A model generated the notes under the pieces. That model was not told where the DNA came from and did not search any database. It worked only from the letters and a program-made list of their open reading frames with translations. The translations under genes and the position numbers were made by a program. Below are positions 10,392 to 58,384 of a stretch of DNA of 64,000 nt, piece after piece. Numbering within the stretch: the first letter of the stretch is position 1; every line of letters starts with the position of its first letter. The stretch covers positions 3,977,001 to 4,041,000 of the forward strand of contig JAUPFP010000001.1 in assembly GCA_036925085.1 (NCBI GenBank), in the 5' to 3' direction. Origin of the DNA: Brachycybe producta (lineage: Eukaryota; Arthropoda; Diplopoda; Playtdesmida; Andrognathidae).

Positions 10392-10849
10392 GTTGATTTA
10401 CACTTTTCAAAATTATGCCACATTTATAAAAAGGGATCAAACGAGAGGCAATCCAAACGAGAGGCAATCCAAACGAGAAAAAAATGTGTGTAAAAATTTA
10501 TCTGCAGTAGTTTTTTCGAGTGTGAAGCAATGTTGTTTATTTGTTTGCACACACTGAATGTTATTTGAAGTCACGCAATGACAACACCCGCCGCCGCCAC
10601 CATTTTAATCAATATAAGGCAATTAAATGAAGTCATGCAATTTAGTTATATCTGTAGAACCTTTTTTTTCTTTCTTTCTTGTCAATTTAAATAAAATAGG
10701 TACACAAAAGTCAATGTTTTCACACTTTAATTTTAATGGAACCATGTACAACAATACATGATGATAATAGCAACTAGATTGTTTATCATATGACAGTTGC
10801 CAAGCAACATCTTAGTTGTTAGTGACAGTTATGATGAGGCAAATAACAA
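10392..10849 (-). promoter_or_regulatory. Presumed 5' flank of the membrane-protein gene
   Basis: Lies directly upstream of the minus-strand start codon. It contains a direct repeat of AAACGAGAGGCAATCC at about 10439-10480 and a short GC-rich island (CCCGCCGCCGCCACCATTTT, about 10587-10606) that stands out in AT-rich DNA. No TATA box or initiator can be assigned with confidence; the promoter role is inferred from position only. Confidence 0.35.
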
Positions 10850-22935: not shown

Positions 22936-24700
22936 TTAAGATATAATTATTGGGTAATTATTTTCGCAAACAGAAATTGTGTTTAAATTAACTGAATTTT
23001 GACCATCATTTGGCAAATTGCGCCAAGACCAATGGCAATCGTCACAGTTGGCAATTGCAACGTACGACTCGTTCAATGTTTGCCTTGCATACCAGTAGTC
23101 AAAGATGACGTCATTCCATTCGCTTCCATCAACAAACTTAAATCGTTCTTTTGTTGTTGAGCGATTCATTCCTATCCAGAAAAAGACATTGGAAGCAGAT
23201 TCAGGATAGACTTGAAGAACTGCCTTTTTGATGAAGTTGTGCATTTCTTCGTTCTTGTCAAGTACCATACGTTTGCTTAGACTTCTGCAATATTCGTAAC
23301 TTTCTAACCAGGTCTTCATCGTGACGCTGCTATTTACGAAAATGACCAAATCGTCCTTTTGAACGCATGATTCACACGATAGTTCTTTACAAAAGAAACA
23401 TATTTTTGTTAGGAATATGTTGCCATTTTTTATGACAATAAAATGAAATATACTTACTGTCACAGTTGTCAGTGAGTGGATAAGGACAAATGCAATAGTA
23501 ATCAAATCCATTGTCAAGAATTATTGGTTTGCATGCTCCAGAATGTAAGCAAGGATTTGGTGTACATGGATCGAGACTTATCTGTTTGAATTGAAAGAAA
23601 GAAGTTATTGGCACCAACAAGTTTTAGTGACATTGGGCATAAGTTCAAAATACAGCAAAGAGTTGAGCTTAATTAGATCTTGCTATATTTTTGCAAGATT
23701 TAATTGAAAGCTTGAACACTTTTAGTTGCAAACGAACTCTTCCATGCAAATCTGCTAGCAGAAGTTCTTTTTGCAAGATTTTGTGTGCTCTGAAGGACTT
23801 CTTGCGAAAGTTGCTTGTGAGATACAGTATGCTGCAAAGATTTGTGTTGAAGATCTGATTGCAAAAATTGCTTGTAAGATTTGCTTACAAAATATGCTTT
23901 AGATTTGCTCGTTGTATTTGCATTCATCATTTATTTGCAGTATTTAGCTATTTGCAAGATTTGCTTGCAAGAATTGCTAGCATAAATTTGTTTGCAAGAT
24001 TTTCTTGAAGGGCATTGCAAAAGGTGCTTGCAAAATTTTCTTGAAGGACATTGCAAAAGGTGCTTGCAAGAATATGTTCTAAGGTATGTCTGCAAGATTT
24101 GCATTGAACATGATATGCTTGCAAGATTTGCGTTGAAGATTTGCATTGAAGATTCGCTTGCGAGATATGCTTGCAATATATGCTTGCAAAACTTGCTTGT
24201 TGAATTTTCATCCATCATTAACTTGTAAGGTTTACAATGCTTTTTGCAAGGCTTTTTTTTGGACTTACCTTTGCAAATAACCATCATTGTTACTTGCAGA
24301 GTAATTTAAACAAATTCCAATATAATTCAAGATGTTAAAACTGAGTAAAGATTGTTTGCAAGATCAACAAGAAAAAAATTAGGATTACCTGTTTGATTTC
24401 ATAAAAATCACTGTTTGGTTCTGGAGTTAACAGTCCGACCTGCCATGAGTAAACCATAACGATTTGGCAGGTACCTTTGGTACTATGTTCAGAACTTATG
24501 AAGTTAAAGGCAGTATACATTTTAGTTTTCCTTGCAAGAAGGGCACATTCTGTGACTAGAACATTTTCATATTTTGCAACCGTTGTAGAAACAGATTTCA
24601 TGCCATGAATAATATTGTAGCTAACTGATGGTTGGATTATTGTTTGGATGGGCAAAATGCAAATGAATGAGATGAAGGCTAAAAGATAATAATTATTCAT
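22936..24700 (-). CDS. Secreted PAN-EGF-CTLD lectin-like protein, paralogue 1 (3 exons)
   Basis: Exons (minus): 24700-24389, 23581-23458, 23384-22936; 885 nt, 294 aa, phases 0 and 1. Splice sites: donor CAG|GTAATC, acceptor AACAG|ATAAG, donor ACA|GTAAGT, acceptor AAAG|AACT. Exon 1 starts at MNNYYLLAFISFICILP, a signal peptide; an upstream in-frame Met at 24748 is less likely. Exon 1 continues as a PAN/apple-like module with two cysteines (TECA, TCQI). Exon 2 is an EGF module with six cysteines (DPC, NPC, GAC, YYC, ICP, NCD). Exon 3 is a CTLD: paired LSCESC at its start, [28 protein letters not shown] and SVCENNY. The canonical inner disulfide pair is not evident; instead there is a local NCDDCHW. 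Intron 1 holds a TTGCAAGATTTGC minisatellite. It is the most diverged of five tandem copies. Role inferred as extracellular recognition or adhesion; ligand unknown. Confidence 0.88.
23640..24290. repeat. Intronic minisatellite (TTGCAAGATTTGCTTGCAAG-like)
   Basis: Fills most of intron 1 of paralogue 1 with degenerate units of CTTGCAAGATTTG and CTTGAAGGGCATTGCAAAAGG. Open frames at 23700-24287 on both strands are repeat translations. Confidence 0.75.
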
Positions 24701-25250
24701 TTTTACTAACAGATTTTTCGAATGAATTTTTTTCATAAAATGTTTCACTGATTTTTAGGGAAATTGTTTTTATTTGAAATCTAGGACCCACTTTTGATAT
24801 TGTGTTGCTAATAAACAAGATTTTCTGTTGTTGTTTTTTTGATCTCAGTTTTCTGTTTTTTTCGTACAATACAATATTATAAATTATTTTATGAATAAAT
24901 TATGAATCTGATCAGGATTTCTGACAAGTGACAAAGGTGTTTTCACAGCAAGTTGCTCAGTTAGCATATTTATAAAAAAAAGCTCTTCATGTTGCAGAAA
25001 AAAGTTCAAAATCTAATAAAATGATACTGTCATAAGTTCACAAAAACACACAACATTTAGCATAGTTATGTATGATAAATGGATACTTGTGACTATCTAA
25101 CTTAATGACATTTAGCTGAAGAACAGCAGGTTGGTCTCACTTGTCAAAAGATAAGATTTCAAGCAAACAACTGCTGTTACCACAACTACAACCAGAAACA
25201 TATGTTTAGCAATAATACTTTACAGAATAACTTTAAAATGGTCATAACTA
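24701..25250. other. Upstream flank of paralogue 1
   Basis: AT-rich, no repeat element recognised. It must contain the promoter of paralogue 1, but no TATA box can be assigned with confidence. Confidence 0.4.
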
Positions 25251-25520
25251 GTGGTCGGATTTTTATGCAATATCAAGCATATGTTTCTCAATTTCTGGCC
25301 CAAGTGCCATTTGTGAAGTAATCATCATCATTGTTTGAGCAACTGTACTTATGCTGTTTTCTATTCAAAAAGGCATGCTAGAGGCTAGATGCCTGATTAC
25401 TATCAGTTGCCAACTAGAGTTCTAGCCTCTCACCAGTATTTTGGATTGATACTGGATTGTTACTTCACAGTTGGCACTTGGGCTACAGATTGAGAAACAT
25501 TTGCTTGATATTGCATAAGT
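25251..25520. mobile_element. F1 foldback element, copy 2
   Basis: GTGGTCGGATTTTTATGCAA, ATGTTTCTCAATTTCTGGCC and AAGTGCCATTTGTGAAG at the left are inverted at the right (CACAGTTGGCACTTGGGC ... GATTGAGAAACATTTGC ... GATATTGCATAA). The right terminus is cut short. The middle has TGCTAGAGGCTAGA and AGAGTTCTAGCCTCT, also mirrored. Confidence 0.7.
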
Positions 25521-25842
25521 TGCAATGCAACAGTAAAGAAAAATGGTACCACAAGAAAAACCTCTCATTATCATTTCCATTTTTATTGGCATAAACATAT
25601 ACAATATCATATTTATTAAGTCATAAATGACTTTTCCAAAAAAAAAAAGGTTTAAAATGTGTTTTCAAAAAGTTAATTAACAAAAATTTCAAACTTGCTG
25701 AAAATGTAACCAAAAAGTGTCAAAATGCATGCAATTTTGTAAAACCAACAAATTTATAATTGCTGAAATTCTTTTATACACATGTGTTTGTGAAAAAGAG
25801 GGCCTTTTGTTTCAATTCAAAGTAAGGATTTAGACGACTTTT

Positions 25843-27875
25843 TTAAGTTACAGTTGTAGAATAATCATTTTCGCAAACACTAAGTGGATAATACAACCCT
25901 GACGTTTGAGCATCATTTGCTAAACTTGTAAATCTGTAACGTGTAGCATAGTTGATAATTGCAACATATAGCTCGTCATTTTTCATATCAGGTTCAAACC
26001 TTTCGAAAGAACCATCAGAGACGGTACCATCGACATAGGTGTAATTTTGGGTTGAACTGGTGCGATTCATTCCGATCCAAAAAAATAAACGGTTCAGGGG
26101 GTTTTTCGAAAAGAGAGAATATACCGTGTTATAAATTAAGCTGTCCTTGTAACTGTCTTTGTCGATAACCAGTCTCATGTTTAAACTACGGCAATATTCG
26201 TAGCTTTCAAGCCAGGTCCTCGTCCTTGCTTCTGTGGTGTTGGTGTTCACGTAAATTATACTTCCATCCCTTGCATTACATGTTGTGCATGTTTTACTGT
26301 GAACTACAAATACATAGGAACAAATTCTGCATTAGCATGTTTTTTTCATGGGTAAGAATGTCAGATGTTCTCAACTGTGGATACGCTGAAAACTGCGGAC
26401 ATATACTGTGGATGGTGTTAAGATGTCAGATGTGTGTTTGTGTCGGCATGTCAGTTGTGTGTCTTTGTGTCGGCATGTCAGTTGTGTGTCTTTGTGTCGG
26501 CATGTCAGTTGTGTGTCTTTGTGTCGGCATGTCAGATGTGTGTTTGTGTCGGCATGTCAGATGCGTGTTTGTGTCGGCATGTCAGATGTGTGTTTGTGTC
26601 GGCATGTCAGATGCGTGTGTGTCAGCATGTCATATGTGTCGTTGTGTCGGCATGTTGGATGTGTGTTTGTGGTGGCATGTCGGATGTGTGTTTGTGTCGG
26701 CATGTCAGATGTGTGTTTGTGTCAAGATGTCAGATGTGTTTGTGTCAAGATGTCAGATGTGTGTTTGTGTCAGGATGTCAGATGTGTGTTTGTGTCAGGA
26801 TGTCAGATGTGTAAGGATGTTAGCTGTGTTTCGGTTGTCAGATGTGTCTGTATGTCAGATATTTGTCAGGATGTCAGGTGTGGCAGAATGTCATGTGTCA
26901 GGATGTGATGTGTGAGATGTTGAAGGATTTCAGATGTGTCAGGATGCAGCACCTGATACAAATAGAACTTACCAGCACAATTACTTTCATCAAATGGGAA
27001 AGAACAGCGACAGTTGTAGTTGGTACCGTTGTTGCGAAGTATAATGCTACATGCTCCATTTTGGCAAGGATTTGGTTTGCAAGGATCTGGAATCATCTGC
27101 AGAGTTTTAAAATGTTTACAATTACAAATAGTCAAAAAACAAACATTGAATTCTGCTTAGATCTGATTAGGTGTACAACTTCCAGTATTTAGCTATATTT
27201 CTTCTTGTCAGATGGTTCTTTTAAAATAAATTCCAATTGTATTAGAAACTAGAAGAGTAGAGTAATTAACTTGTAGCATTTTATGATGATAATTTTCATA
27301 ATAATGCTAATTAAACCATCAAAATATACTATTGTTGCCTTTTTAAGTCTATTAAAAAGTTTATTTTGAAAGATATTGTCATAAAATTACTACCATTCGA
27401 TTCTTTTACTCCTTATGGCAAAATCAATGCCATAATTGGAAATGCTTTGTTATTTTGTTATGCGATTTGCCACACAGTTTAAGATAAGCAATTAATACAC
27501 ACATTGCAATTACAACAAGGACACACACAAATGCAGAAATTTGATTAATTAAAGAAAATTTGCCTTTTGGATTTCATAAAAATATTGGTTTGATTTTGCT
27601 GTAACCAGTTGTTTATTTTCTCCTTGGTTAAATGCAAGAATTTGGCAATTGCCAGTAATGCCGGAGTTGTCAAATATAAAATTAAAAGCATTATGCATGT
27701 CAGATTTGCCACCAAGAGATGCACATTCTGAAATGGACACATTCTGATAAGAATCACGCGGTTCTGCCATAGACACCAATCCGACATTCTTTTTATACAG
27801 AATGTAATGACCATTGTTCAGTACCAAAATTATGCAAATGACAACCATAAAACACAAGAAATGAAAATTATGCAT
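25843..27875 (-). CDS. Secreted PAN-EGF-CTLD lectin-like protein, paralogue 2 (3 exons, GC donor)
   Basis: Exons (minus): 27875-27564, 27096-26973, 26303-25843; 897 nt, 298 aa, phases 0 and 1. The intron 1 donor is AAAAG|GCAAAT (GC-AG intron); the other sites are CTGCAG|ATGATT, CTG|GTAAGT and TTGTAG|TTCAC. Exon 1 begins [18 protein letters not shown] (signal peptide), followed by the PAN-like module ([28 protein letters not shown]). Exon 2 is an EGF module, [15 protein letters not shown] ... NCRCSFPF ... NCAG. Exon 3 is a CTLD with a KTCTTC pair, [43 protein letters not shown] and SVCENDY; its LPNDGQ equivalent is LANDAQ. Intron 1 carries an F3 element and intron 2 a 25-bp minisatellite. An AATAAA lies at 25587-25582 on the minus strand, about 255 nt past the stop. 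Its CTLD resembles that of paralogue 5. Confidence 0.88.
26402..26940. repeat. Intronic 25-bp minisatellite (CGGCATGTCAGATGTGTG)
   Basis: Roughly twenty copies of a 24-26 bp unit containing GGCATGTCAGATGTGTGT inside intron 2 of paralogue 2. Units become shorter and more diverged toward 26900. The three Cys/Val-rich plus-strand frames here are repeat translations, not genes. Confidence 0.85.
27240..27415. mobile_element. F3 foldback element in intron 1 of paralogue 2
   Basis: GAAACTAGAAGAGTAGAGTA at the left; TTAAAAAGTTTATTTTGAAAG and ATATTGTCATAAAATTACTA toward the right. It is a diverged member with a degraded right arm. Confidence 0.6.
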
Positions 27876-28471
27876 TTTTGTTTTTGGCTGAGAGACAAAA
27901 AAAAAGTTGCTGGACAAAGTTGTTTCACTTTGTAATATTTTTTAGGTAAAAATCTCTTGTTTTATTTTGAACCTTTTTTATGGTTTTTGGATGTCTGTGT
28001 GTTATATGAGTTTTGGTAATAAATTGTTTTATGAATAACTTATGAATTCTGTCATAGAATATGATAACATATTGTGGCACAGCATCAAATACAATTTCCG
28101 TGTTATTTTATGACAAGAATCTTCAGAAATTCTGATTTGGTGGAGAGCAATGAAACAAAATGTCACTTGTCAGGAAAAATGGTGCTTATTTTCTTTTCTT
28201 TTTTGATAAATGATTATTTGGCTTTTGATCAGTCAATTTTATATAATAAACTTTGTATTTATGCATACTAGCATATAATAGAGACCTACAAACCCCATGT
28301 GACCTACAAAGCCATATGTACCCCAAAAAAATCATTAGGCCCATAAAGCTCATTAGGTGCATGAAGGCTATCAAGTCGAGTCCGTAAAACCTATTAGATA
28401 CACAAAGTCCTGTAAGCGCCTCAAAAACAATCATGTCCTTAAGCATAGAAGCCCGTAATTCTTATTTGCAG
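27876..28471. other. Upstream flank of paralogue 2 with a CCCATAAAG-type repeat
   Basis: AT-rich. 28270-28440 has loosely repeated ACCTACAAA and CCCATAAAGCTCATTAGG units resembling the 4.1-4.6 kb minisatellite read on the other strand. No gene seen. Confidence 0.45.
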
Positions 28472-28875
28472 CTAATTAGTAGGGCTCAGATTTTTAGGCT
28501 AATATCAAGCATATGTTTCTCAATCTTGTGGTCTCAAGTGCCAATTGTAATTTAACAATTCCGTTTAGATCAACCAACAATTATGGTTTTTCAATCAAAA
28601 ACACTGGTTAGAGGCTAGAACTCTAGTTGACAACTGATGGTAACCAGACAGCTAGCCTCTAATTAACTTTTATGATGATGATGATTATGATGATGATTTC
28701 ACAATTGGCACTTGAGCCACAAACTGAGACATTTGCTTTGATCTTCTTCTTTCCCAGGACCCACGTCCCACACAACGTGGGGTCGGTCAATGATGATGAT
28801 GATAATGAGCCATTTGGCCCCGAATTGGGCGAGATGTGTTGATATTGCATAAAAATCTGAGTCCTACTAATTAGC
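28472..28875. mobile_element. F1 foldback element, copy 3, with a nested insertion
   Basis: Ends CTAATTAGTAGGGCTCAG and CTGAGTCCTACTAATTAG are exact inverses, making this the best-preserved pair of F1 termini. The right arm is interrupted at about 28738-28845 by sequence containing CCCACGTCCCACACAACGTG (itself a hairpin) and GATGATGATGATAATGA. No coding capacity. Confidence 0.8.
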
Positions 28876-28942
28876 ATGTGCAAATAACATGAAATGATGC
28901 CATAATTTCATAAACAATACATAAAATGAAGGTTTTATTTTA

Positions 28943-29365
28943 TTAAATTGGTAGGAAAATAATTGCGGTTTTTGTTTACTGCAATTGAAACTCAGTTGTT
29001 TTCAATATAAGTGTAATTACTAATTACATTGTGCTTGTGTTAAGATCATTTGAAAGTGCATTTTGCGGTCTTGTATTTGAGTAATAATGTTAACTTTGGA
29101 TTGATTGTTAATTGTGTTTCAATTTAGGCTATGAAATTGAAAATGGACCATAAAACAATTAAATATCTTCAACAATTAACGTAGCTGCTGCCAAAAAAAA
29201 ATGCATTTCGAGATGTTATCAACTCTCGGACTCCGGAATTTTACACCACCGGAATAAATAAACTTGTAATTAATTTGCAAAAAGGCGTCAATATTAATTA
29301 TTAATTCATAAATTTTGTTATTAGCTGAGAAGACAAAAACCGCAATTATTTTCCTACCAATCTAA
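28943..29365. mobile_element. Mariner-type MITE, copy 2
   Basis: Ends TTGGTAGGAAAATAATTGCG and CGCAATTATTTTCCTACCAA are exact inverses. The interior matches the copy at 6748-7150 closely (for example TTTTGCGGTCTTGTATTTGA and ACACCACCGGAATAAATAAA). TA borders flank it. No transposase frame. Confidence 0.85.
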
Positions 29366-29617
29366 TACTTTCTAACCAAATTTACTCATGTGTGTTTCCA
29401 CATTAAAATTACTTAGAATTTTATTATTATTCTATTAATTGAAATTACACATTTGTAGTTTTGCATACTGTTTATTTTAAACTGTCATATTACATCAAAA
29501 TCACACCAAAACACACTGGGAAAATCACACATTGTAATGTTGCAATATGATAAAATCCACAAACATTATATTATTGATAAATTCAAACTTTTGTCAAATT
29601 GTTAAAAAGCATATTTT

Positions 29618-31926
29618 TTATGGTGGTTCCAAAAGTATAGGGAAATTAGATTCACAAACAGAAATTGAAGTTGTAGGTTGACCATCATTTGGCAGATTTA
29701 GCCATGACAATTCACCATTGTCACCGTTGACCATTGCAACACAAATGTCATTTTGTGAACTGCCAGCTTTCCAAGGTGAAAAAGAAGTGTCCCATTGAGT
29801 TTGGTCGACAAAAGTGAAAGTTTCAGCCGTAGAAGAACGATTCATTCCGAGCCAAAAAAAGACACTTTGATCACCGAGTTCATCATCCGATTGATAATTA
29901 TCTTTTATGGCCTGAATGATGAAATCGTGTTTCTCTTGGTTATTGTCAACGACCAATCTTTGAGCCCTATTTCTGCAGGTTTCGTAACTTTGTAGCCATG
30001 TTTGTCCTGTTACTTTGGAGTCGATGAAAACGATCAAGTCACCTTTTTTAGAACACTTTTGGCAGGACAGATCTATTAAAACCCAAAAACACTTTTCTAT
30101 AGATAGGTGGACAATGGTCAGTTTCAAAATTCCATATTGAAACTGGCGCCAAGAGATGTGAAAAAAAATTACAAGTGATTAATTAATGAAAAGCATGATT
30201 TGAAGCTGAAACAATTCAAACTTTGTTAGAAATTAGAATTGTATTTGTTAATTATATCATTATATTTTAAAATAAAAATTTTTATTGCAAAATTTAACAA
30301 TTTTGTTTATTGATGCATTGCTTTTTTATAGCAAGCTAGATAAATTTTAAAATTAATATTTTGAAATTGCCATAAAATATTATCTGGAAGATAGACCTAA
30401 TTTTAGGTTGGTAGGAAAATAATTGCGGTTTTTGTTTTTTATCAGCTATAATAACGAAATTTGTGAATTAATAACACTTATATTGAAAACAATTGAGTTT
30501 CAATTGCAGTAAACAAAAGCCGCAATTATTTTCCTACCAACCTAATATATAAATCTACAATTCTAGTTTCCAACAAACTTTGATTATTTAAACTTATATT
30601 TACGAAGGAAACAAAACACGGGTTTTAGGGTACAATTATAATTGTCGTGCTATTGGCGCAAGTCTCAACGTGGTGCTTTCCTATTGGCTTACGTACCATC
30701 ACAGTCATTGTATAGTGGGTATGGACATTCGCAATAGTAATATTTACCACTGGTTAGAATAGTAGGATAACATGCCGCACCATGATGACAGGGATTTGGG
30801 CTGCACTGATCTGGAATAGTCTGAGAAATAGTAAAAAAAAACAATCAATTGTTAATTAAAGCAATTTATAATTTCACCACTGTACATCGAGCTGATTGCA
30901 GGCGTACTGAGTTGAGTTGAATTGAATTGGTTGTAAACATTGTCAGTCACTTTAAAGTCTTTCTTGTTTGACAATTTGTCAAACATTCTAACCTATTACA
31001 ACCATATGACATGACAACATGCAACAGTATACAACACCAGCACAATACAACATAAAAGTACAACTGGCCTGTTTCACAAAAGTACAAGTTTGTAAGTAAC
31101 AAGTAATTTTTTTTACAAGTGTATACTTGTAAACTACAAAAGATCACTTGTAACTATCAAGTGTAGATGACAAACTTGTGACTGACACTTGTGAAATGCC
31201 TGTTCCAAAAAAACTTGTGATTACAAGTACAAGTAATCTACAATTGTTATTGACAATACTTGTAGTTTTGTGAAATGGGGTCCAGTAAGTCCTCGACAAG
31301 CAAATTCACTTGTAACTTAAGAACTTTTACTTAAGATTGTGTTTCATAAAATTACTAATTATATTTTTTACAAGTTACAAATATAAACGCTTGTAGAAAA
31401 TGGCTAAACAACTTGTCAAATTTGGAGTCAAAACAAACTACAAGTTGTAGAAAATGCTTTGTGAAACACTCGTATTGGTAACTTGTAAATATTAGAATTA
31501 ATTACTTGTAATTTGTAAATTGTTTGAACTTGTATTTTGATGAAACAGAGGTCAGTTGCAATTTTTTTTTTGTTAAAAAAAAAGTATATTTACCTTTTGC
31601 AAAATATAGAAATCTGTGCCACTTTCGGTAACTGTGTTACTGTCCCACTCCCAAACGAAACTTGCTAAAATTTGGCATGTTCCTGTTTTCTTGCCAGCAT
31701 TATCATGAATAAAATTGAAAGAATTGTGTTGTTGAAGGTTGCCACCAAATGATGCACATTGCGCAACAGTTACATTCTTGTGTATTTCAAGTGGATCCTT
31801 AACGAACTTCTTTCCTGGTGATTTCTTGTAAATACTTGTTGGGTCACTTGCTTCAACATTCAATTGCATTGTGTTGTAACATAGCAAAATGATACTTATC
31901 TGTACTATTGTGATAAAATGCTGCAT
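29618..31926 (-). CDS. Secreted PAN-EGF-CTLD lectin-like protein, paralogue 3 (3 exons)
   Basis: Exons (minus): 31926-31594, 30820-30697, 30072-29618; 912 nt, 303 aa, phases 0 and 1. Sites: CAAAAG|GTAAAT, TCTCAG|ACTATT, GATG|GTACGT, TAATAG|ATCTG. Exon 1 is MQHFITIVQISIILLCY (signal) plus a PAN-like module (TVAQCASFGG, FNFIHDNAG, TCQIL, GTDFYILQK). Exon 2 is an EGF module: PDQCSPNPCHHGAAC, YYYCECPYPL, DCDG. Exon 3 is a CTLD: LSCQKC, TWLQSYETCRN, FFWLGMNRSS, FTFVDQTQWD, DICVAMVNGDNG, LNLPNDGQ, SVCESNF. A cysteine is present at the canonical C2 position (ICVAM) but the C3 partner before SVCE is absent. A minus-strand AATAAA lies at 29476-29471, about 142 nt past the stop. Introns carry a TIR element (intron 1) and a mariner MITE (intron 2). 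The CTLD is nearly identical to that of paralogue 4. Confidence 0.88.
30403..30545. mobile_element. Mariner-type MITE, copy 3 (internally deleted)
   Basis: Perfect termini TTAGGTTGGTAGGAAAATAA and the inverse ending CCTACCAACCTAA. The 143 bp consist of the two ends of the longer family member, in reverse orientation to the 28943 copy, with the middle missing. Sits in intron 2 of paralogue 3. Confidence 0.85.
31067..31553. mobile_element. TIR/foldback element rich in ACTTGTA/TACAAGT
   Basis: Left end GGCCTGTTTCACAAAAGTAC and right end TATTTTGATGAAACAGAGGTC are approximate inverses. The interior repeats ACTTGTAA and TTACAAGT many times in both orientations, so it can fold extensively. It occupies much of intron 1 of paralogue 3. 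Confidence 0.65.
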
Positions 31927-32404
31927 TTTTCTAGATGTTGTTGTTTCTTGATAAAATTCTAATTAATATAAGTTACAAGAATATGATTTATGTCACAAGT
32001 TACTTTCAATTTGTCATGTGGTAGTAGTAGTGCTGTGATGTTTTTATTGTTTCGAAAATGTTGCCAATAGCAAACATTAATAACTTTAGTTCACTTTCAT
32101 TCCTAGTTTTGTTTTCTAATTGTTCATTTATTTTTTTTTTGTTATGTGGCCATGATTAAAGTTCTATTGTATGAATTGCATTATTCAATTATATGAATTA
32201 AGACTTCTTTTTTGTTTTCATTATGTTTCTGCTGCATAATTAGATCCATTAGTGAATGTTTTTTTTCATTGATTTTCATTTTGTCATTTAATGTGATTTA
32301 TATTTTACTTACACTGTTTTTGTTTTGTTGTTGCTTTATTCATTGTTTATTTTGTGTAATATTTGTAGTTAGATAAACAGTTAGTGAGAAATTTTTATTG
32401 GCGG
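31927..32404. other. Upstream flank of paralogue 3
   Basis: AT-rich with TTTTGTT runs. No element recognised; it presumably contains the promoter. Confidence 0.4.
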
Positions 32405-32860
32405 TATTGATAAAAAGACATTGCATTTTGTTATTATTGCAAATTTTTGCATTTTAACACTCTGAACATTACATAAAAATTGCATGTTGCAATTGCATTT
32501 TTTTGCATTTTAACACCTAAAAATGACATAAAAATTGCATGTTGCAATTATTGCAATTTTTTGCATTTTAATACCTAAAAATTACATAAAAATTGCATTT
32601 TGTTATTATTGCAAATTTTTGCATTTTAACACTCTAAAAATGACATAAAAATTGCTTGTTGCAATTATTGCAATTTTTTTGCAATTTAATACCTAAAAAA
32701 GGCATAAAAATTGCATGTTGCAATTATTGCAATTTTTTGTATTTTAACACTTAAAAATGACACAAATTATTGCAAATTTTTACATTTTAACATCTAAAAA
32801 TTACATAAAATTGTATTATTGTAAATTATTCATTACAACACTGAAAAATTACTTAAAAAT
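32405..32860. repeat. Minisatellite of about 60 bp (TTGCAATTATTGCAATTTTT)
   Basis: About seven units containing AAAAATTGCATGTTGCAATT, TTTTTTGCATTTTAACACC and TAAAAATGACATAAAAA. Lies between paralogues 4 and 3. No coding frame. Confidence 0.75.
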
Positions 32861-33006
32861 AACTCTTTGCTTAAAACCTATATATTTATTTGAGTGATGC
32901 AAATGTATAAATGAATCACAATCTTGCAATAATAATTATCTAAAGGTATTATTTTCTAAAACACAAACTTTGTTTTTTTGCAAACAAAAAACAAAACAAA
33001 ACACAC

Positions 33007-35016
33007 TTAAGTAGTATCTAAAAGCAAAGGGTAGTTATTTTCGCAAACAGAAATTGAAGTTGTAGGTTGACCATCATTTGGCAGATTTAGCCATGACAAG
33101 TCACCGTTGTCACCGTTGACCATTGCAACATAATTGTCCTTTTGTGGGCTACCAGGTTTCCAAGGTGAAAAAGAAGTGTCCCATTGAGTTTGATCGACAA
33201 AAGTGAACGTTTCAGCCGTAGAAGAACGATTCATTCCGAGCCAGAAAAAGACACTTTGATCAGCCGATTCATAATTATCTTTTATGGCCTGAATGATGAA
33301 ATCGTGTTTCTCTTGGTTATTGTCAACGACCATTCTCATGTCCCTCTTTCTGCAGGTGTCATAGCTATCTAACCATGTTTGTCCAGTTAGGTCGGTGTAA
33401 AGGAAAATAACGCTGTCACCTTTCTGAGTGCATTTTGAGCATGAAAGAACTATGAAAACCCCCCCAAAAATAGTTTTCTATACTTGTTTATGTGTGGACA
33501 AGTGGTACATTGGGTTAGTTTATGTTGAAATGCTATGTTGACACTAGTGTCAATTTTGAAGCCGTGGCCTCTACTGGTGCCTAGTGTCAACTAAGCTATT
33601 TTAGTATATTATGATACGTACCATCACAGTTATCTTTCAGTGGGAAAGGACACATACAATAGTAATTTATACCAGTTGTACGAAAAATTGCTTTGCACGT
33701 CCCAGTACGTTTGCAAGGATTTGGATTACACTGATCTGGAGCAGTCTGAAAAAGATTGCAAACAATGTTACATTAAAATTTGCATGTTTTGCTCAATTTG
33801 AACTTTTTTGTGCAAATTGCAATATGCACAGACAATAATCAGTAAAGTCAATTTTTTTTTTGCTTAAAATTGCTACAAAATAAACGTGAAATGACCATTA
33901 CAATTACAAATACAATTAGTACTCTGCTAGCAGCCAAATAGGCCTATGGCAGAGGGACATAAAAGTCCACATGCAGCATTAAGCATTGTCAAGCACATGT
34001 ATAAAAAACCAAAATGAATAGACAAATGTCAATCCCACAAAACAAAATTTTCCCCATTCACCACTTCCTCAGGAAGAGAGTTCCATTGTCTTATAACTCT
34101 AGGAAAAAAAGACCAATAATATGAATCTGTCCTAGGAAAAACCTCCTAATTTTCCTAGAGTGGTCAGCCCTGGTTCCAACCCTTTTCGATGACACTCTGA
34201 TACTACATGAGTGCCATATTATGTAAAATAATAATCAGTTTAAGCCTAAATAAAGATGTATTAAATGCACAATTTGCATAGGTTTTTTTTTTTAAAAAAA
34301 ATTGCATAAAGTTGTTTAAAGTTTTTTTTAAAAACATTTTTTGGTCAGAATGATATTCTACGTACGAAGAGTTTGTTAGACGAAATCGTTTTTGATTTTT
34401 CATTTTCTGTTATTACTTTTGATTATTGCAGCTGTGTTAATTGTTTCAGACATTTAATTATGCTTTTATTACATAACATACACTTTTTATTAGCATAAAA
34501 CGAACAATTACTATAGTTTGTATATTTTTGCATTTTTAGATATATTTTCAATATGCATAAAACGCATAATTTCTAAACAAAAATCAATATATAAATAAAT
34601 GCATATCACAAACGCACACATAATAATGCAATAAAAACTGAACTTGCATAGCATATACAATTATAATAACATAAAAACATTGCCTGTTCTATTGCATAGA
34701 AATCCGTGCCAATTTCATCAGTCATTTTCTTTTCCCATTCTTCCCAGTAGTAACTTAGCATGATTTCGCACGTACCCGTGTTACCTGATTGATCAGGAAT
34801 AAAATTAAAAATATTGTGTTCTGTAATATTGTCACCAAGAAATGCACATTGGGTAAATGTCACATTCTTGTGGGTTTCAATCGGAGTTCCATTAAACTTT
34901 TTGCCTGAAGTTTTGGTGTACAAAAGTGATTTTACTGTTAATGCTTGACCATCAAATGGTTTTTTAGAAATTAATAAAATTAAACAAATTAATAACAACA
35001 TTACTAAAGGATGCAT
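33007..35016 (-). CDS. Secreted PAN-EGF-CTLD lectin-like protein, paralogue 4 (3 exons, GC donor)
   Basis: Exons (minus): 35016-34684, 33745-33622, 33449-33007; 900 nt, 299 aa, phases 0 and 1. The intron 1 donor is GAACAG|GCAATG (GC-AG); the others are TTTCAG|ACTGCT, GATG|GTACGT and TCATAG|TTCTTT. Exon 1 is MHPLVMLLLICLILLIS (signal) plus a PAN-like module (KKFNGTPIETHKNVTFTQCA, FNFIPDQSG, TCEIM, TDEIGTDFYAIEQ). Exon 2 is an EGF module: PDQCNPNPCKRTGTC, YYCMCPFPL, NCDG. Exon 3 is a CTLD: LSCSKC, TWLDSYDTCRK, FFWLGMNRSS, FTFVDQTQWD, NYVAMVNGDNG, LNLPNDGQ, SVCENNY. The first exon is closest to paralogue 5, but exons 2 and 3 are closest to paralogue 3, so the gene is a mosaic. A minus-strand AATAAA lies at 32890-32885, about 117 nt past the stop. 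Intron 1 holds a LINE fragment. A (TTG)n tract adjoins the start codon. Confidence 0.88.
33890..34205 (-). pseudogene. LINE 3' end in intron 1 of paralogue 4
   Basis: On the minus strand this encodes RTDSYYWSFFPRVIRQWNSL followed by PEEVVNGENFVLWD and a stop. That is the FFpRv-WN-LP signature at the C-terminus of LINE ORF2 proteins. About 110 bp of its 3' UTR (TGCTTGACAATGCTTAATGC ... CATAGGCCTATTTGGCTGC) recur at 63388-63500. 5'-truncated and inactive. Confidence 0.8.
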
Positions 35017-35019
35017 TTT

Positions 35020-35020
35020 C

Positions 35021-35061
<41 letters not shown>
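35020..35061. repeat. (TTG)n microsatellite abutting the start of paralogue 4
   Basis: About fourteen TTG units begin three bases upstream of the minus-strand ATG and so lie in the presumed 5' UTR as (CAA)n. Confidence 0.9.
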
Positions 35062-35063
<2 letters not shown>

Positions 35064-35975
35064 AAAACTGATACCGTAATGGTTTTAATGATGCTAGATT
35101 CTATTTGTCACACACATATGTCACATGTCATTGGTGAGATTGACATTTGCACATATTACATGTATAGTCCATAATTGCACCATATGGTACATTATAGTCC
35201 ATTATTGCAAATATTCATTCAGATTTCTTTTCTGATTGCTTATTCAGTTTATTAAATGTACCATTATTTAAATTAAATTAAATTGAATTGAAATTTCTTT
35301 TGTTTAACAATATGTATGCCACTTACATTGTTTAGAAGGCAATAATAATTGCATAATTTGAATCCATTAGTTTATTATTGATTTTCTCTATTGTAAATTG
35401 TATTGTATTGTGTTATACCTTTTAATAGACAGGTATTATTAATAATAAATCAATAATTCATTCAGAACTAACAGTGTCAGCACTTAATTATAGCTTTGTG
35501 ATATTATTAATGTCACAGATACATGTTGATATATTTAAAAAAAATAAACATTCTTGTCATTTTGCAATAAGTGTTTAGTAAAAATGATTTTCAAAATGTT
35601 ATATAGGCCTACTGTTTATTTTGAAATATATATTAATGAAAATACTTTGAGTATGTATTCGTGTGCTATTCTAGTTTTTAATACACATTAAATTCTGTCT
35701 TATAAGGCTACTTCTATATTCTATGTTTAATATGAAAATATTTATCTGAACTAACTTGTAAGAACTTGATAATAATAACTGAAAACAGTACGCCATATTT
35801 AAGTTGCTATAAATAGTTTATTTTGAAAGATATTGTGATGAAAATACAGTTAAAAACATTGCTTTAACACATCTTTCTTTCTGAACACTGAAAATCTTTT
35901 TAAAGCTATCGTTAATTAATTAACTAATAAATAACAAAATAGGTGTAAATTGAAAGGGCCCACCTGGTGTTAATT

Positions 35976-35976
<1 letters not shown>
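35062..35976. other. Upstream flank of paralogue 4
   Basis: AT-rich. F3-like fragments (TTTATTTTGAAATATATATT, TTTATTTTGAAAGATATTGT) lie near 35610 and 35820. No gene seen. Confidence 0.45.

Positions 35977-36055
<79 letters not shown>
35977..36055. repeat. (AAT)n microsatellite
   Basis: About 25 AAT units. The minus-strand Leu-rich frame at 35920-36177 is its translation. Confidence 0.95.
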
Positions 36056-36056
<1 letters not shown>

Positions 36057-36114
36057 TAATAACAATAATTATAATATGAATAACAACAATAATAATAATA
36101 TGAACAATAACAAT

Positions 36115-36430
36115 GATATTCGGCTTTGTATGCAAAATATGAAGCAGATGTTTCTCAATCTGGGGCCCAAGAGCCAATTGTGAAGAGACACTCCCATTTA
36201 GATCAACCGACTATTATGATTTTCTCAATCAAACATACTTGTTAGAGGGTAGAACTCTAATTGATAACTGAATGTGTGTAGACACCTAGCCTCTAACCAG
36301 CCTTTTTGATTAGAAAAAGGCATATTTGCAGTTGTAATCTAATGATGATGATTATTATTTCACAATTGGCACTCTGGCCACAAATTGAGAAACATTTGCA
36401 TAATATAACTTGCATAAAAATCCGAGCATT
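36115..36430. mobile_element. F1 foldback element, copy 4
   Basis: ATGTTTCTCAATCTGGGGCC and AAGAGCCAATTGTGAAG at the left; inverse at the right (CACAATTGGCACTCTGGCC ... AATTGAGAAACATTTGC ... AAAAATCCGAGCA). The left end is less well preserved. Confidence 0.7.
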
Positions 36431-36560
36431 AATAATAATAGTGAAAATAGTAACATAATAAAATAACCATTATTGTTGTGCAAATAGTAATAATCCTACA
36501 ATCAGAACTAGTAACTATAGAACCAGTGAGTTTTTAAATAGATTTAAACCAAATTTTTTT

Positions 36561-38152
36561 TTATGAATAATCATTTTCGCAAACTGAAATTGGTGGCAAA
36601 CCAATTTGCATTTGACCTTCATTTACCATATTACGAAAGGACCAATTGACACTCGGACTGTTAGTAATTCCAACATAGAGTGTATCTTGAGCCGTGTATT
36701 TTTCAAACGGTTCGAATGAACCATCTGAAAGAGTGCCATCAACATATCTGAATTTTTCAGTATTAATGGTTCGATTCATTCCTATCCAAAAAAAGACCCT
36801 CGAATATTGCGGATAGACTTTTGTTATGGTCTCTATGATGAAGTTGTGCTTTTCTTGGTCTTTGTCCAATAACATCCTCATTCCCAAACTACGGCAATAA
36901 TCGTAATTATCGAGCCACGTCCTCGGATCTGCTGTGCTGGCGTTGACAAAAATGATCAAGTTGCCATTTTGATTACATGTATCACATGACATTTCTGTAA
37001 TTTTGGAAGCATTTATGATTGGTATTTATTATGACAACAATATTGTGACAAAAGTGTGAACATTGCTTTCATACCTTCACAATAATTTCCTCCTAAAGGG
37101 AATGGGCATGTGCAGAAAAAATTGTTGCCATTTCTGCGAATCATTATTCTGCATTCTCCATTATTTCGGCATGGATTTTCTGCACAAGGATCTGGAATGA
37201 TCTGAAAAATTACAAAAAAAACATTGTTAATTAAAGATGACATTTGGATATTTGCCTTAAGCACCACCACACATGCCCTAATGCCTATTGCCCTAAAAGG
37301 ATGATTAAACAGTTGAGCATGCATTTTTGTGAAATTTTCATTCCTCATTTGATCAAAAATTGAGTGACTCTCACTATCCGCCATGTTGTTACTAGGTTAA
37401 ATTTCGTTGAACAACAAGAAGTTACTAATTTAACCATTCAATATGTGGTTAACCACACTGTGTCTATGCAGTTTAGTTAACTCTATTGTTCAGATATTTA
37501 AACTTGATTAATGTTACCAGAATTTTTTCCATTAGAATATTAATTATGGTTAACCTTTTTAACTGCAATTAATTTTTTTTAAAGCTTTGTCTACCAATAC
37601 ATTTGTAATTGGTAAAAGCAAATTTTTAGAATAACATTTTGACAGAACAATAGACAAAACACGTATATAACATAATATGTTATGGTTGCTTTGTATATAA
37701 ACATAACTGACGCGAAAACATATTCAAACAAAGTCAGATGACGTGAAAACACAATGCTAATCCAGTGCAAGTGCCAAGTATACTTTCTAGTCCATAAATA
37801 TTACAAATATTAATTTTGCCTTTTCTAGTTGGTAGAAATCCGTACCAATTTCGTCAGTCATATTATTTTGCCAGCCTTTCCAATAGTAATTTAGTAGAAT
37901 TTGGCAAGTGCCCATCTTGCCCAAATGATCATGAATAAAATTAAATATATTGTGATCATGTTTGTCACCAAGTATTGCACATTGTGAAAGTGTCACATGA
38001 TTGTGTATTTGAAGTGGATCTCCATTAAATTTTTTTCCTGATGTTCTTGTGTACATCACTGATTGTCCAGTTGTTACTTGACCATTCAATGGTTTAGAAT
38101 AACTTAGTAAAGTTAAACCTATCAGTGTTGTTAAAATGACTAAAATGTTCAT
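36561..38152 (-). CDS. Secreted PAN-EGF-CTLD lectin-like protein, paralogue 5 (3 exons, GC donor)
   Basis: Exons (minus): 38152-37820, 37201-37075, 36994-36561; 894 nt, 297 aa, phases 0 and 1. The intron 1 donor is GAAAAG|GCAAAA (GC-AG); the others are TTTCAG|ATCATT, GAAG|GTATGA and ATTACAG|AAATG. Exon 1 is MNILVILTTLIGLTLLS (signal) plus a PAN-like module (KKFNGDPLQIHNHVTLSQCA, FNFIHDHLG, TCQIL, TDEIGTDFYQLEK). Exon 2 is an EGF module, IPDPCAENPCRNNGEC, FFCTCPFPLGG, YCEG, one codon longer than in the other copies. Exon 3 is a [67 protein letters not shown]. Exon 1 is closest to paralogue 4 and exon 3 to paralogue 2. It is the most upstream gene of the array; the poly-G run at about 38160-38170 lies just before its start. 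Confidence 0.88.
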
Positions 38153-39889: not shown

Positions 39890-40067
39890 CAAAAAAACAT
39901 ACTGTAGTAAAGAATCGAAGAGGTATCACCTTATCTAAGGTTCGGAGAGTAAGAGGTGTGCTCATAAACGAAGGACGCTCCACTCCTGGCAACCTTCTTT
40001 CATTCGCTTTTCTACTCACTATTTTACTTATTTTTTTGCCCCACTTTTATCAAAAGTAGCCAAAATA
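39890..40067. other. Unique sequence bordering the satellite block
   Basis: No gene or repeat recognised. A minus-strand 106-codon frame at 39699-40019 crosses from the truncated repeat into this stretch and is not supported. Confidence 0.4.
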
Positions 40068-41335
40068 GCTATTTTGTGTCCATTTGCGCCACGGATTTGT
40101 GTCCATTTGGTCATTTTTGCCGCCATTTGGTCATTTTCGCCGCCATTTTGTGTCCATTTGTCCAGTTTCGGTGCCATTTTATGTCCATTTGTACATTTTG
40201 CCGCCATTTTGTGTACATTTTCGCCGCCTTTTTGGTTCCATCTTTGTCGCCATTTTGTGTCCATTTTCGCTGCCAGTTTGTCCATTTTCGCCACCAGTTT
40301 GTGTCCATTTTCGCGGCCAGTTTGTGTCCATTTTCGCGGCCAGTTTGTGTCCATTTTCGCGGCCAGTTTGTGTCCATTTTCGCCGCCAGTTTGTGTCCAT
40401 TTTCGCGGCCAGTTTGTGTCCATTTTCGCCACCAGTTTGTGTCCATTTTTGCCGCCAGTTTGTGTCCATTTTCGCCGCCAGTTTGTGTCCATTTTCGCCG
40501 CCAGTTTGTGTCCATTTTCGCCGCCAGTTTGTGTCCATTTTCGCCGCCAGTTTGTGTCCATTTGCGAAGCCATTTTGTGTCAATTTTCGCCACCTTTTTG
40601 TGACCATTTTCGTTGCCATTTTGTGTCCATCTTCGCCGCCATTTTGTGTCCATTTTCGCCGCCATTTTGTGCCCATTTTCGTCGCCATTTTGTGTCCATT
40701 TTCGCCGCCATTTTGTATCCATTTTCACCGCCATTTTGTATCCGTTTTCACTGCCATTTTCACTGCCAGTTTGTGTCCATTTTCGCGGCCATTTTGTGTC
40801 CATTTTCGCCGCCTTTTTGTGTCCACTTTCGAGCCATATTCTATCCATTTTTGACGCCATTTTCTATCCATTTTCGCCGCCATTTTGTGTCCACTTTCGC
40901 CGCCAGTTTGGGTCCACTTTCGCCGCCAGTTTGTGTCCATTTTCGCCGCCAGTTTATGTCCATTTTCGACGCCATTTTGGGTCCATTTTCGCCGCTTTTT
41001 TGTGTTCATTTTTTGCCGCCGTTTTGTGTCCATTTTCGCAGCCAGTTTGTTTCCATTTTCGCCACCTTTGTGTGACCATTTTCGACGCCATTTTGTGTCC
41101 ATTTTTGACGCCATTTTGAGTCCATTTTTGCTGCAATTTTGGGTCCATTTTCGCCGCTTTTTTGTGTTCATTTTTTGCCGCCGTTTTGTGTCCATTTTCG
41201 CAGCCAGTTTGTTTCCATTTTCGCCACCTTTGTGTGACCATTTTCGACGCCATTTTGTGTCCATTTTTGACGCCATTTTGTGTCCATTTTTGGCAACCAT
41301 TTTGTGTCCATTTTTGCTGCCATTTTTCATCTTTC
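40068..41335 (+). repeat. 23-bp satellite array, left arm (GCCGCCATTTTGTGTCC)
   Basis: Roughly 55 units of a 23-bp monomer made of TTTGTGTCCATTTTCGCC and GCCAG or GCCAT, on the plus strand as written. A GCCAG subtype dominates 40265-40565 and GCCAT the remainder. A seven-monomer block (about 161 bp) is duplicated: about 40979-41117 and 41140-41280. Because 23 is not divisible by 3 and the unit lacks stops in all phases, long spurious frames with a 23-residue period appear. The same monomer, inverted, forms 58385-59735. Confidence 0.95.
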
Positions 41336-44300
41336 ATTTTGTCATCCTTTCATCCTTTTGTCTTATTTTCTTTTCATCCATTCATCTTTTCATTATTTCA
41401 TCCTTTCATTTTTTCATTCTTTCATCCTTCTGTCCTTCCATCCATCTGTCCAGATCTGCTTGTCCATCTGTCTGTCTGTCTGTCCACCCATCCATCCACC
41501 TGCCTGTCTGTCCACCCATCTGTCTGCCCATTCACCCATCCGCTCATCCACCTGTCCACCCGTTTATCTGCCCATCCGTTTTCCATCTGTCCTTCCATAT
41601 TACCATTTTTTTGTCCATCCATCCATCTGTCCATCCTAATCTGCCATATGTCCATCCATCCACCTATCTGCCCATTTATTCATTCATCCTTTCATCCATT
41701 CATCTTTTCATCCATTCATCTATTTATCCTTTCATCCATTCATCTATTTATCCTTTCATTCATTCATCTATTTATCCTTTCATCCGTTCATCTATTTATT
41801 CTTTCATCCATTCATCCTTTCATCCATTCATCCTTTCATCCATTCATTCATTCATCCATTCATGCATTTATTCATCCATGCATCCATTCATCCTTTCATC
41901 CATTCACACCCTTTATCCCTTCAACCTTTTATCCATTTATCTATTCACCCATTTGTTCTTTCATTCAGTCATCCTTTCATCCAGTCATCCTTTCATCCAG
42001 TCATCCTTTCATCCAGTCATCCTTTCATCCAGTCATCCTTTCATCCAGTCATCCTTTCATCCAGTCATCCATTCATCCTTAAATCTGTTCATTCTTTCAT
42101 TCATCCATTTTATCATCCTTTCATCCATTTATCTATTCACCCTTTTGTTCTTTCATCCATTCATCCTTAAATCTGTTCATTCTTTCATTCATCCATTTTA
42201 TCATCCATTCATCCATTCATCCTTTCATCCATTCATCCTTTTATCAATTCATCCTTTCATCCATTCATCCTTCCATCCTTTCATCCATTCATCCTTTCAT
42301 CCATTCATCCTATCATTCATTCATCCATCTTTTCATCCATTCATCCAGTCATCCTTTAATCCTTTCATCTATTCATCCATTCATCTTTTCATCCATTCAT
42401 CCTTTCATCCATTCATCCATTCATCTATTCATCCATTCATCTTTTCATCCTTTCACCCACTCATCCTTTCATCCATTCATCCTTTCATCCATTCATCCTT
42501 TCATCCATTCATCTTTTCATCCATTCATCCATTCATCTTTTCACCCATTTATCCTTTCATCCATTCATCCTTTCATCTATTCATCCTTTAATCCATTCAT
42601 CCTTTCATCCATTCATCCTTTAATCCTTTCATCTATTCATCCATTCATCTTTTCATCCATTCATCCAGTCATCCTTTAATCCTTTCATCTATTCATCCAT
42701 TCATCTTTTCATCCATTCATCCTTTCATCCATTCATCTATTCATCCATTCATCTTTTCATCCTTTCACCCACTCATCCTTTCATCCATTCAACCTTTCAT
42801 CCATTTATCTTTTCATCCATTCATCCTTTCATCCATTCATCCATTCATCCTTTCATCCATTCATCTATTCATCCATTCATCTTTTCATCCATTCATCCAG
42901 TCATCCTTTAATCCTTTCATCTATTCATCCATTCATGTTTTTATCCATTCATCCTTTCATCCATTCATTTTTCATCCATTCATCCTTTCATCCATTCATT
43001 TTTTATCCATCCATCCTTTCATCCATTCATCCTTTCACCCTTTCATTTATTCATGTTTTCATCCTTTCATCCATTCATCCTTTCATCCATTCAACTTCTC
43101 ATCCATTCATCCTTTCATTCATCCTTTTATCCTTTCATCCATTCATCCTTTCATTCATTCATGTTTTCATCCTTTCATCCATTCATCCATTTATCTATTC
43201 ATTATTTCATCCTTTCATCCATTCATCCATTTATCTATTCATTATTTCATCCTTTCACCCTTTCATCCATTCATCCTTTCATCCATTCATCCTTTCATCC
43301 ATTCGTCCTTTCATTCATCCATTCAGCCATTTGCCCTTTCATCCTTTTATTCATTCATCCATTTGCCCTTTCATCCATTAATCTATTCATCCTTTCATCC
43401 AATCATCCTTTCATCCATTTATCCATTCATCCTTTTATCTATTCATCCTTTCATCATTCACCCTTTCATCACCCATCCTTTCATACATTCATCCTTTCAT
43501 ACATTCATCCTTTCATCCATTTATCCATTCATCCTTTTATCCATTCATCCTTTTATCCATTCATCCATTTATCCATTCATCCTTTTATGCTTTCATCCAT
43601 TCACTTTTCATCCATTCATCCTTTCATCCATTCATCCTTTTATGCTTTCATCCATTCATCCTTTCATCCATTCATCCTTTCATCCATTTATGTTTTCATC
43701 CTTTCATCCTATTATTCATTCATCCTTTCATCCATTCATCCTTTTATGCTTTCATCCATTCATCTTTTCATTCATTCATCCTTTCATCCTTTCATCCTTT
43801 CATCCATTTATGTTTTCATCCTTTCATCCTATTATTCATTCATCCTTTCATCCATTCATCCTTTCATCCTTTCATCCATTCATCCTTTTATGCTTTCATC
43901 CATTCATCTTTTCATTCATTCATCCTTTCATCCTTTCATCCATTTATGTTTTCATCCTTTCATCCTATTATTCATTCATCCTTTCATCCATTCATCCTTT
44001 CATCCTTTCATCCATTTATGTTTTCATCCTTTCATCCTATTATTCATTCATCCTTTCATCCATTCATCCTTTCATCCATTCATCCTTTGATCCTTTCATC
44101 CTTTTATCCATTCATCTTTTCATCATTCATCCTTTCATCCTTTTATTCATTCATCCTTTCATCCATTCATCCTTTTATCCATTCATCCTTTCATTGTTCA
44201 TCCTTTCATCCTTTTATTGTTCATCCTTTCTTCCATTCATTCATCCTTTCATCCATTCATCCTTTCTTCCATTCATTCATCTTTTCATCCATTCATCCTT

Positions 44301-55121: not shown

Positions 55122-55221
55122 NNNNNNNNNNNNNNNNNNNNNNNNNNNNNNNNNNNNNNNNNNNNNNNNNNNNNNNNNNNNNNNNNNNNNNNNNNNNNNN
55201 NNNNNNNNNNNNNNNNNNNNN
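55122..55221. other. Assembly gap (100 N)
   Basis: Exactly 100 N, the usual placeholder for a gap of unknown size. The sequence class changes across it, from CATCC satellite to polypurine satellite. The distance and relative orientation of the two sides are therefore not assured. Confidence 0.98.
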
Positions 55222-58200: not shown

Positions 58201-58384
58201 GAGGAGGAGAAGAGAAGAGGAGGAGAGGAGGGGAGGGGAGGAGAGAAGAAGAGGAGAAGAGAGAAGGAGAGGAGGAGAGGAAAAGAGAAGAGGAGGAGAG
58301 GAGGAGAAGAGGAGAGGAAAAGAGAAGAGAAGAGGGGGAGAGGAGATGAGGAGAGGATGAGGCTGAGAAGCTGAGAGGATGAGG
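55222..58384. repeat. 3.2 kb polypurine satellite (GAGAAGAGGAGAGGAG)
   Basis: The plus strand is nearly all G and A, built from AGAAGAGGAGAGGAG variants with an occasional GTGGA. Around 57897-58140 there is an exact 24-bp period containing GAAGAGGAGGAGTGGAGGAG. Purine-only strands of this length can form triplex (H-DNA). The minus-strand Ser/Leu and plus-strand Glu/Arg frames of over 1000 codons are artefacts of composition. Near 58360-58400 it passes through GGATGAGGATGAAAGAATG into the 23-bp satellite. Confidence 0.95.

Follow-up and report, generated by a model that had tools for sequence, protein, structure and literature searches.

A tandem array of five genes for predicted PAN-EGF-CTLD proteins in the diplopod Brachycybe producta, including a likely exon chimera

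We analysed a 64,000-nucleotide stretch of the genome of Brachycybe producta (GenBank assembly GCA_036925085.1, contig JAUPFP010000001.1, positions 3,977,001 to 4,041,000), referred to here as the window, which harbours a tandem array of five minus-strand genes, A to E. Each is predicted to encode a short secreted protein made up of a PAN-like domain, an EGF domain and a C-type lectin-like domain (CTLD). The array runs from window position 22936, the first base of an exon 3, to 38152, the last base of an exon 1. When the genes were rebuilt from the DNA using splice motifs, each was found to consist of three exons, with introns in phase 0 and then phase 1, and to end in a terminal stop. This bears out the layout proposed in the initial annotation, with which the coordinates agree and in which all frames closed on rebuilding; its product lengths of 294-303 amino acids were likewise reproduced, provided that gene A is taken from its inner methionine. 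The genes, together with three stretches within them that are discussed below, are as follows (window coordinates, all on the minus strand).

22936-24736, minus strand: gene A; exon 1 24389-24700, exon 2 23458-23581, exon 3 22936-23384; an outer methionine at 24736 gives exon 1 an alternative start; 294 (inner methionine) or 306 (outer methionine) amino acids, frame closed, both introns GT-AG.
25843-27875, minus strand: gene B; exon 1 27564-27875, exon 2 26973-27096, exon 3 25843-26303; 298 amino acids, intron 1 GC-AG.
29618-31926, minus strand: gene C; exon 1 31594-31926, exon 2 30697-30820, exon 3 29618-30072; 303 amino acids, both introns GT-AG.
29628-30101, minus strand: stretch of gene C covering nearly all of exon 3 and 29 bases of intron 2; 83.7% match to gene D 33017-33482 (blastn).
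33007-35016, minus strand: gene D; exon 1 34684-35016, exon 2 33622-33745, exon 3 33007-33449; 299 amino acids, intron 1 GC-AG.
33017-33482, minus strand: gene D partner of the apparently homogenised C-D CTLD stretch (blastn; also families D5 and D8).
36561-38152, minus strand: gene E, a probable exon chimera; exon 1 37820-38152, exon 2 37075-37201, exon 3 36561-36994; 297 amino acids, intron 1 GC-AG.
37820-38080, minus strand: mature exon-1 domain of gene E, with a PAN/apple fold predicted by AlphaFold2.

The array is part of a wider family. Queried with exon 3 of A, exon 1 of E, X and Z, the 295 Mb assembly yielded eight genes at two loci: A-E, and three paralogues, X, Y and Z, on contig C21 at 3.795-3.804 Mb. 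Within the window, a tblastn search with all eight family members (E up to 5) found no credible further copy, the best match outside the array having an E-value of 0.31. The exons of A-E can be aligned along their full length, with 57 columns invariant across the five proteins, EGF cysteines included. Furthermore, the proportion of non-synonymous differences (pN) was lower than that of synonymous differences (pS) in all 30 within-array comparisons (ten gene pairs by three exons) and in 15 of 15 comparisons with Z as the outgroup. The alignment of the exons, the excess of pS over pN and the lack of a further copy in the window confirm that the five gene models are beyond chance. Judged from the pattern of substitution, these comparisons demonstrate purifying selection on the array genes, and with pN below pS throughout there was no gene-wide sign of diversifying selection.

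The layout of one domain per exon, as first proposed, holds for A-E and for Z, which has the same three exons, but not for the whole family: in Y the PAN-like and EGF domains share one exon, and in X, which has no EGF domain, the PAN-like domain is joined straight to the CTLD by a phase-1 intron. Since the layouts of X, Y and Z differ, it is not certain that one domain per exon is the ancestral state; on these gene models, the phase-0 intron has been either gained or lost within the family. The N-termini of A-E are hydrophobic, as measured by hydropathy, and all eight members carry NxS/T sequons.

For the first exon, the mature domain of gene E adopts the PAN/apple fold in the AlphaFold2 prediction, which was compared with structures in the PDB using VIA-align. 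Two of the four PAN core cysteines are kept, aligning with the first and the last cysteine of the PAN_1 core; for the disulfide pairing of the core cysteines we assume the arrangement of HGF. The genome contains 26 PAN_1 matches, none of them within the array. A cluster of 21 of these lies on the same contig (C1:3527477-3873379), its end some 127 kb away from the array, and comprises what we take to be nompA-type genes; there is no ZP match near this cluster, the five ZP matches in the genome all being on other contigs. The clustered domains retain four core cysteines in 11 of 11 cases, a count that used 11 of the 19 sequences from which PAN_1 profiles were made (24 of the 26 matches in the genome were read, and 19 of these were used, with five short ones omitted and some ends adjusted by eye). 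A derivation of exon 1 from this cluster was considered and is not supported, given its four core cysteines and its weak resemblance to exon 1. On contig C52, matches to PAN_1 and to the CTLD lie about 1.5 kb apart on opposite strands, and so do not form one gene.

The second exon encodes six cysteines (C122, C127, C133, C146, C148 and C156) that are invariant in A-E and follow EGF spacing. Pfam EGF scores, however, fell below the cut-off in all five genes.

The CTLD assignment of the third exon was upheld by profile searches. Lectin_C (PF00059) scores were 26.6 bits for A, 37.1 for C, 32.7 for D and 23.9 for E against a cut-off of 22.6, with gene B just below it at 21.6, and a profile built from the five exon-3 rows found CTLD chains in the PDB with an E-value of 5.6e-14 at best. 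The outer cysteine pair (C190 and C297) and a W-[IL]-G-M-N motif of the WIG type are invariant in all five proteins. X, Y and Z have the inner pair, which is not conserved in A-E (stray cysteines lie nearby in A and C), and the CTLD of the family opens with a C-x2-C motif. In C-type lectins the EPN/QPD and WND motifs form the calcium and sugar sites. Neither EPN/QPD in the CTLD nor WND at its site was found in any of the eight members. Gene A has a stray EPN in the PAN domain and a stray WND in an earlier CTLD loop, gene B has an EPD three columns ahead of the EPN/QPD site, and X, Y and Z carry W-[DS]-[ND] variants of WND. Because these sites are not conserved, the CTLD is expected not to bind sugar via calcium, and the term lectin, if used of the array in the sense of a sugar binder, is not supported. 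Genome-wide, at least 15 exons match Lectin_C, of which six belong to the PAN-EGF-CTLD family; this search gives a lower bound, and B and E fall below it. No viral relatives of the CTLD were confirmed among 56 pattern matches. A broken copy of a gene-E-like CTLD exon, with an interrupted frame and pieces 84-86% identical to E, was found at C2:8644464-8644917 on the minus strand, adjoined by a KWTQNG-type low-complexity array.

Trees were then compared between exons using approximately unbiased (AU) tests on five taxa. Exon 1 favours a tree in which A and B stand apart from C, D and E, whereas exons 2 and 3 together favour one that joins B with E, and C and D with A. At the protein level, exon 1 rejected the B+E grouping (best p 0.019) and exons 2 and 3 rejected A+B (p 0.0036), the latter being rejected firmly by the nucleotides as well (p 0.0082 and 0.014). 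In four-taxon tests omitting either C or D, exon 1 and exons 2+3 rejected each other's tree with both nucleotides and proteins (p 0.003-0.027); when A or B was omitted, the conflict was partial; and when E was omitted, both parts of the gene gave AB|CD. Because omitting E abolishes the conflict between the exon trees, gene E is likely to be an exon chimera, with a PAN exon of the C/D kind and EGF and CTLD exons of the B kind. Gene B was tried as the chimera in place of E and rejected, as without B the best trees still differ, while without E they agree; in the test without B, the rejection by exon 1 of the tree from exons 2 and 3 was only marginal (AU p 0.037 for nucleotides, 0.068 for amino acids). 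A separate pattern was seen between C and D, whose identity within exon 3 jumps after codon 38 from 78/114 to 299/327 bases, a change that none of 1000 permutations equalled in strength. The CTLD exons of these two genes look homogenised, as by gene conversion.

Intron 1, lying between the PAN exon and the exons for EGF and CTLD, has a GC donor in B, D and E and a GT donor in A, C and Z. In gene B no other in-frame donor (no GT) was found before the in-frame stop 12 bases downstream; in gene E a possible GT donor lies 15 bases further on, and gene D offers both GC and GT possibilities beyond its donor. Introns of the GC-AG type form an established functional class, accounting for about 1.2% of the first introns of human protein-coding genes (PMC7242645). 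As D and E probably share their GC donor by descent, the three GC donors do not represent three independent events. Unspliced transcripts of B, D and E would encode a secreted protein with the PAN-like domain only.

With slightly better than even confidence, we read the array as part of an arthropod family of secreted mosaic extracellular binding proteins, in which gene E has been exon-shuffled and the C and D CTLD exons converted. Each protein would comprise a signal peptide, a divergent PAN/apple domain in which two of four core cysteines remain, then an EGF domain and finally a CTLD opening with C-x2-C. The proteins of A-E may be secreted, glycosylated and bound to protein or glycan ligands outside cells; the PAN and EGF domains could act as an adhesion or spacer module, and, given that its EPN/QPD and WND sites lack conservation, the CTLD is proposed to bind by way of its loop surface and independently of calcium. 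Recombination within intron 1, between the PAN exon and the EGF-CTLD pair, may have created the gene E chimera, and gene conversion may have evened out the CTLD exons of C and D. A bolder extension, which we regard as very doubtful, is that a degenerate PAN exon and an EGF-CTLD exon pair have been reassorted among array members through intron 1, where weak GC donors would allow B, D and E to yield either the full or a PAN-only protein, so that a single intron would serve as both recombination joint and isoform switch.

A number of observations weigh against the reading of the array as a family of mosaic binding proteins. The Pfam PAN profile had no match in A-E or in X, Y and Z in a search with E up to 10, in which HMMER filters discard most matches above 0.1, and no PDB sequence match to exon 1 was found, so that the proposal that exon 1 is PAN-like stands on the predicted fold but not on profile matches. 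Comparison of exon 1 with PAN by hhalign gave a probability of 12-17%; the exon-1 profile of A-E alone scored 15.1 over 25 columns and that of the C21 trio X, Y and Z 9.8 over 14, while a control with the EGF profile of the same family reached 17.8, albeit over 18 columns. In a column-shuffle control, one shuffle beat the real score, its value being an odd 129.6, the largest. The signal peptides were assessed by hydropathy alone, and dS is high or saturated in most gene pairs, making pN/pS ratios rough. Within the tree analysis, exon 1 rejected B+E only marginally with nucleotides (AU p 0.049 under GTR, the general time-reversible model, and 0.076 under HKY, the Hasegawa-Kishino-Yano model), and exon 2 alone did not reject A+B (0.13 and 0.18; nucleotides). 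When the distant Z served as outgroup, C+D was not rejected by exon 1 (AU p 0.15), nor does exon 1 settle whether C or D is the closest partner of E.

Other accounts of the array were weighed against the same data. The proteins could be gland products, that is, secreted components of venom, saliva or a defensive secretion, as opposed to proteins that serve recognition in the body fluid. This would fit a tandem array encoding small multi-domain secreted proteins, and CTLD proteins have been reported from the defensive secretion of the centipede Lithobius forficatus (PMC11170834). There, however, the CTLD is combined with large disordered proteoglycan regions in a different layout, and the array has no gene-wide sign of diversifying selection; we consider a gland role unlikely. 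A cuticular or extracellular-matrix role, with PAN and CTLD attaching to matrix partners and the array supplying dose or stage variants, draws on the concentration of 21 of the 26 PAN_1 matches at 3.53-3.87 Mb of the same contig, presumably in matrix genes of the nompA type. The four core cysteines of these domains (11 of 11), their weak likeness to exon 1 and the location of all five ZP matches on other contigs, with none near the cluster, speak against this role, and make it in our judgement quite unlikely.

Two further explanations concern the integrity of the genes themselves. Exon 1 might encode an unrelated two-cysteine domain that resembles PAN in fold only, as the lack of Pfam PAN and PDB sequence matches, the absence of two of the four core cysteines and an EGF profile control that scores nearly as high would all allow; we rate this as very unlikely. 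Finally, the array might be partly decaying, with the GC donors of B, D and E being broken splice sites from which no full proteins are made. GC donors do occur in three of the five first introns, gene B combines the weakest CTLD match with the highest within-array pN/pS for exon 3, and a broken E-like CTLD exon is present on C2. Yet exons 2 and 3 are open and constrained in all five genes and GC-AG introns are, as described above, a functional class (PMC7242645), leaving decay highly improbable.

Several other features were recorded in the course of this work. An array of 25-base tandem repeats occupies window positions 26462-26855 within intron 2 of gene B, and inverted arms of 79 bases (28941-29019 and 30469-30547), 94% complementary and 1449 bases apart, flank exon 3 of gene C. 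Mutually related inverted-repeat elements resembling small non-autonomous transposons, with arms of 48-71 bases that are 83-89% complementary, lie in intergenic DNA at window positions 25263-25518, 28591-28661, 36136-36406 and 366-411. Low-complexity arrays of great length, with several frames open (repeats FIHSSFHPFI, EEKRR, KWTQNG), extend over about 40000-59500 of the window, where a run of N lies near 55.1 kb, and a single open frame of 372 amino acids at 9279-10397 on the minus strand has only sub-threshold similarity to TMEM230/134. Elsewhere in the assembly, long cox1 copies in nuclear contigs (C1:12697416-12698753 and C17:4027703-4029047) are probably nuclear mitochondrial insertions or assembly joins. 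Contig C442, of 15359 bases, is mitochondrial, reads by table 5 and has a rearranged gene order: cox1, cox2, (atp8/atp6, assumed), cox3, nad3, nad6, cob, nad2, an interval presumed to contain the rRNAs, nad4L, nad4, (nad5, not read) and nad1. The pair nad4L-nad4 shares the strand of cox1, and nad1 lies in reverse orientation immediately ahead of cox1; apart from cox1, the genes were named by eye. The order published for the centipede Strigamia maritima is a different one (PMC4368715). The use of table 5 and 33 genomic matches to the cuticle-protein profile chitin_bind_4 (PF00379) both indicate an arthropod, while PF02949 gave eight weak matches.

The component domains are ordinary; their combination, the second locus and the signs of an exon swap make the find useful if modest. 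The array and its C21 paralogues form a PAN-EGF-CTLD family with two loci in an arthropod that has at least 15 Lectin_C exon matches. They include a predicted PAN-fold domain whose divergence would put it beyond Pfam, and they provide a compact example of a gene array whose modules have apparently been exchanged at an intron. Should transcripts bear out the GC donors, the array would in addition represent an unusual cluster of GC-AG first introns.

We did not find the combination of PAN, EGF and C-type lectin domains, which the initial annotation called unusual, in the open-access literature, judged in part by title, and the main text of PMC4244043 makes no mention of lectin, PAN domain or EGF. 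The PAN/apple domains of HGF (its N domain) and plasminogen are 10-14% identical to exon 1 in aligned rows; exon 1 has two of the four PAN_1 core cysteines, and the family lacks kringle and protease domains. The exon-3 profile matches PDB chains of the mannose receptor, the PLA2 receptor and mosquito mosGCTL, with which the array has Lectin_C in common; unlike these, A-E lack conserved EPN/QPD and WND motifs and the inner cysteine pair, and have a C-x2-C opening and attached PAN and EGF domains. The Lectin-PG proteins of the Lithobius forficatus secretion are likewise secreted arthropod CTLD proteins, but differ in their large disordered proteoglycan regions, with neither PAN nor EGF ascribed to them in the available part of the source (PMC11170834). 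The C21 paralogues have in common with A-E the PAN-like exon 1 and the CTLD, with EGF in Y and Z, but differ in having kept the inner cysteine pair and W-[DS]-[ND]. Selectins are extracellular adhesion proteins with a CTLD, an EGF domain, sushi repeats and a membrane anchor, in that order. As in the array, their CTLD lies beside an EGF domain, whereas the order in the array is PAN, EGF and CTLD, followed by the stop.

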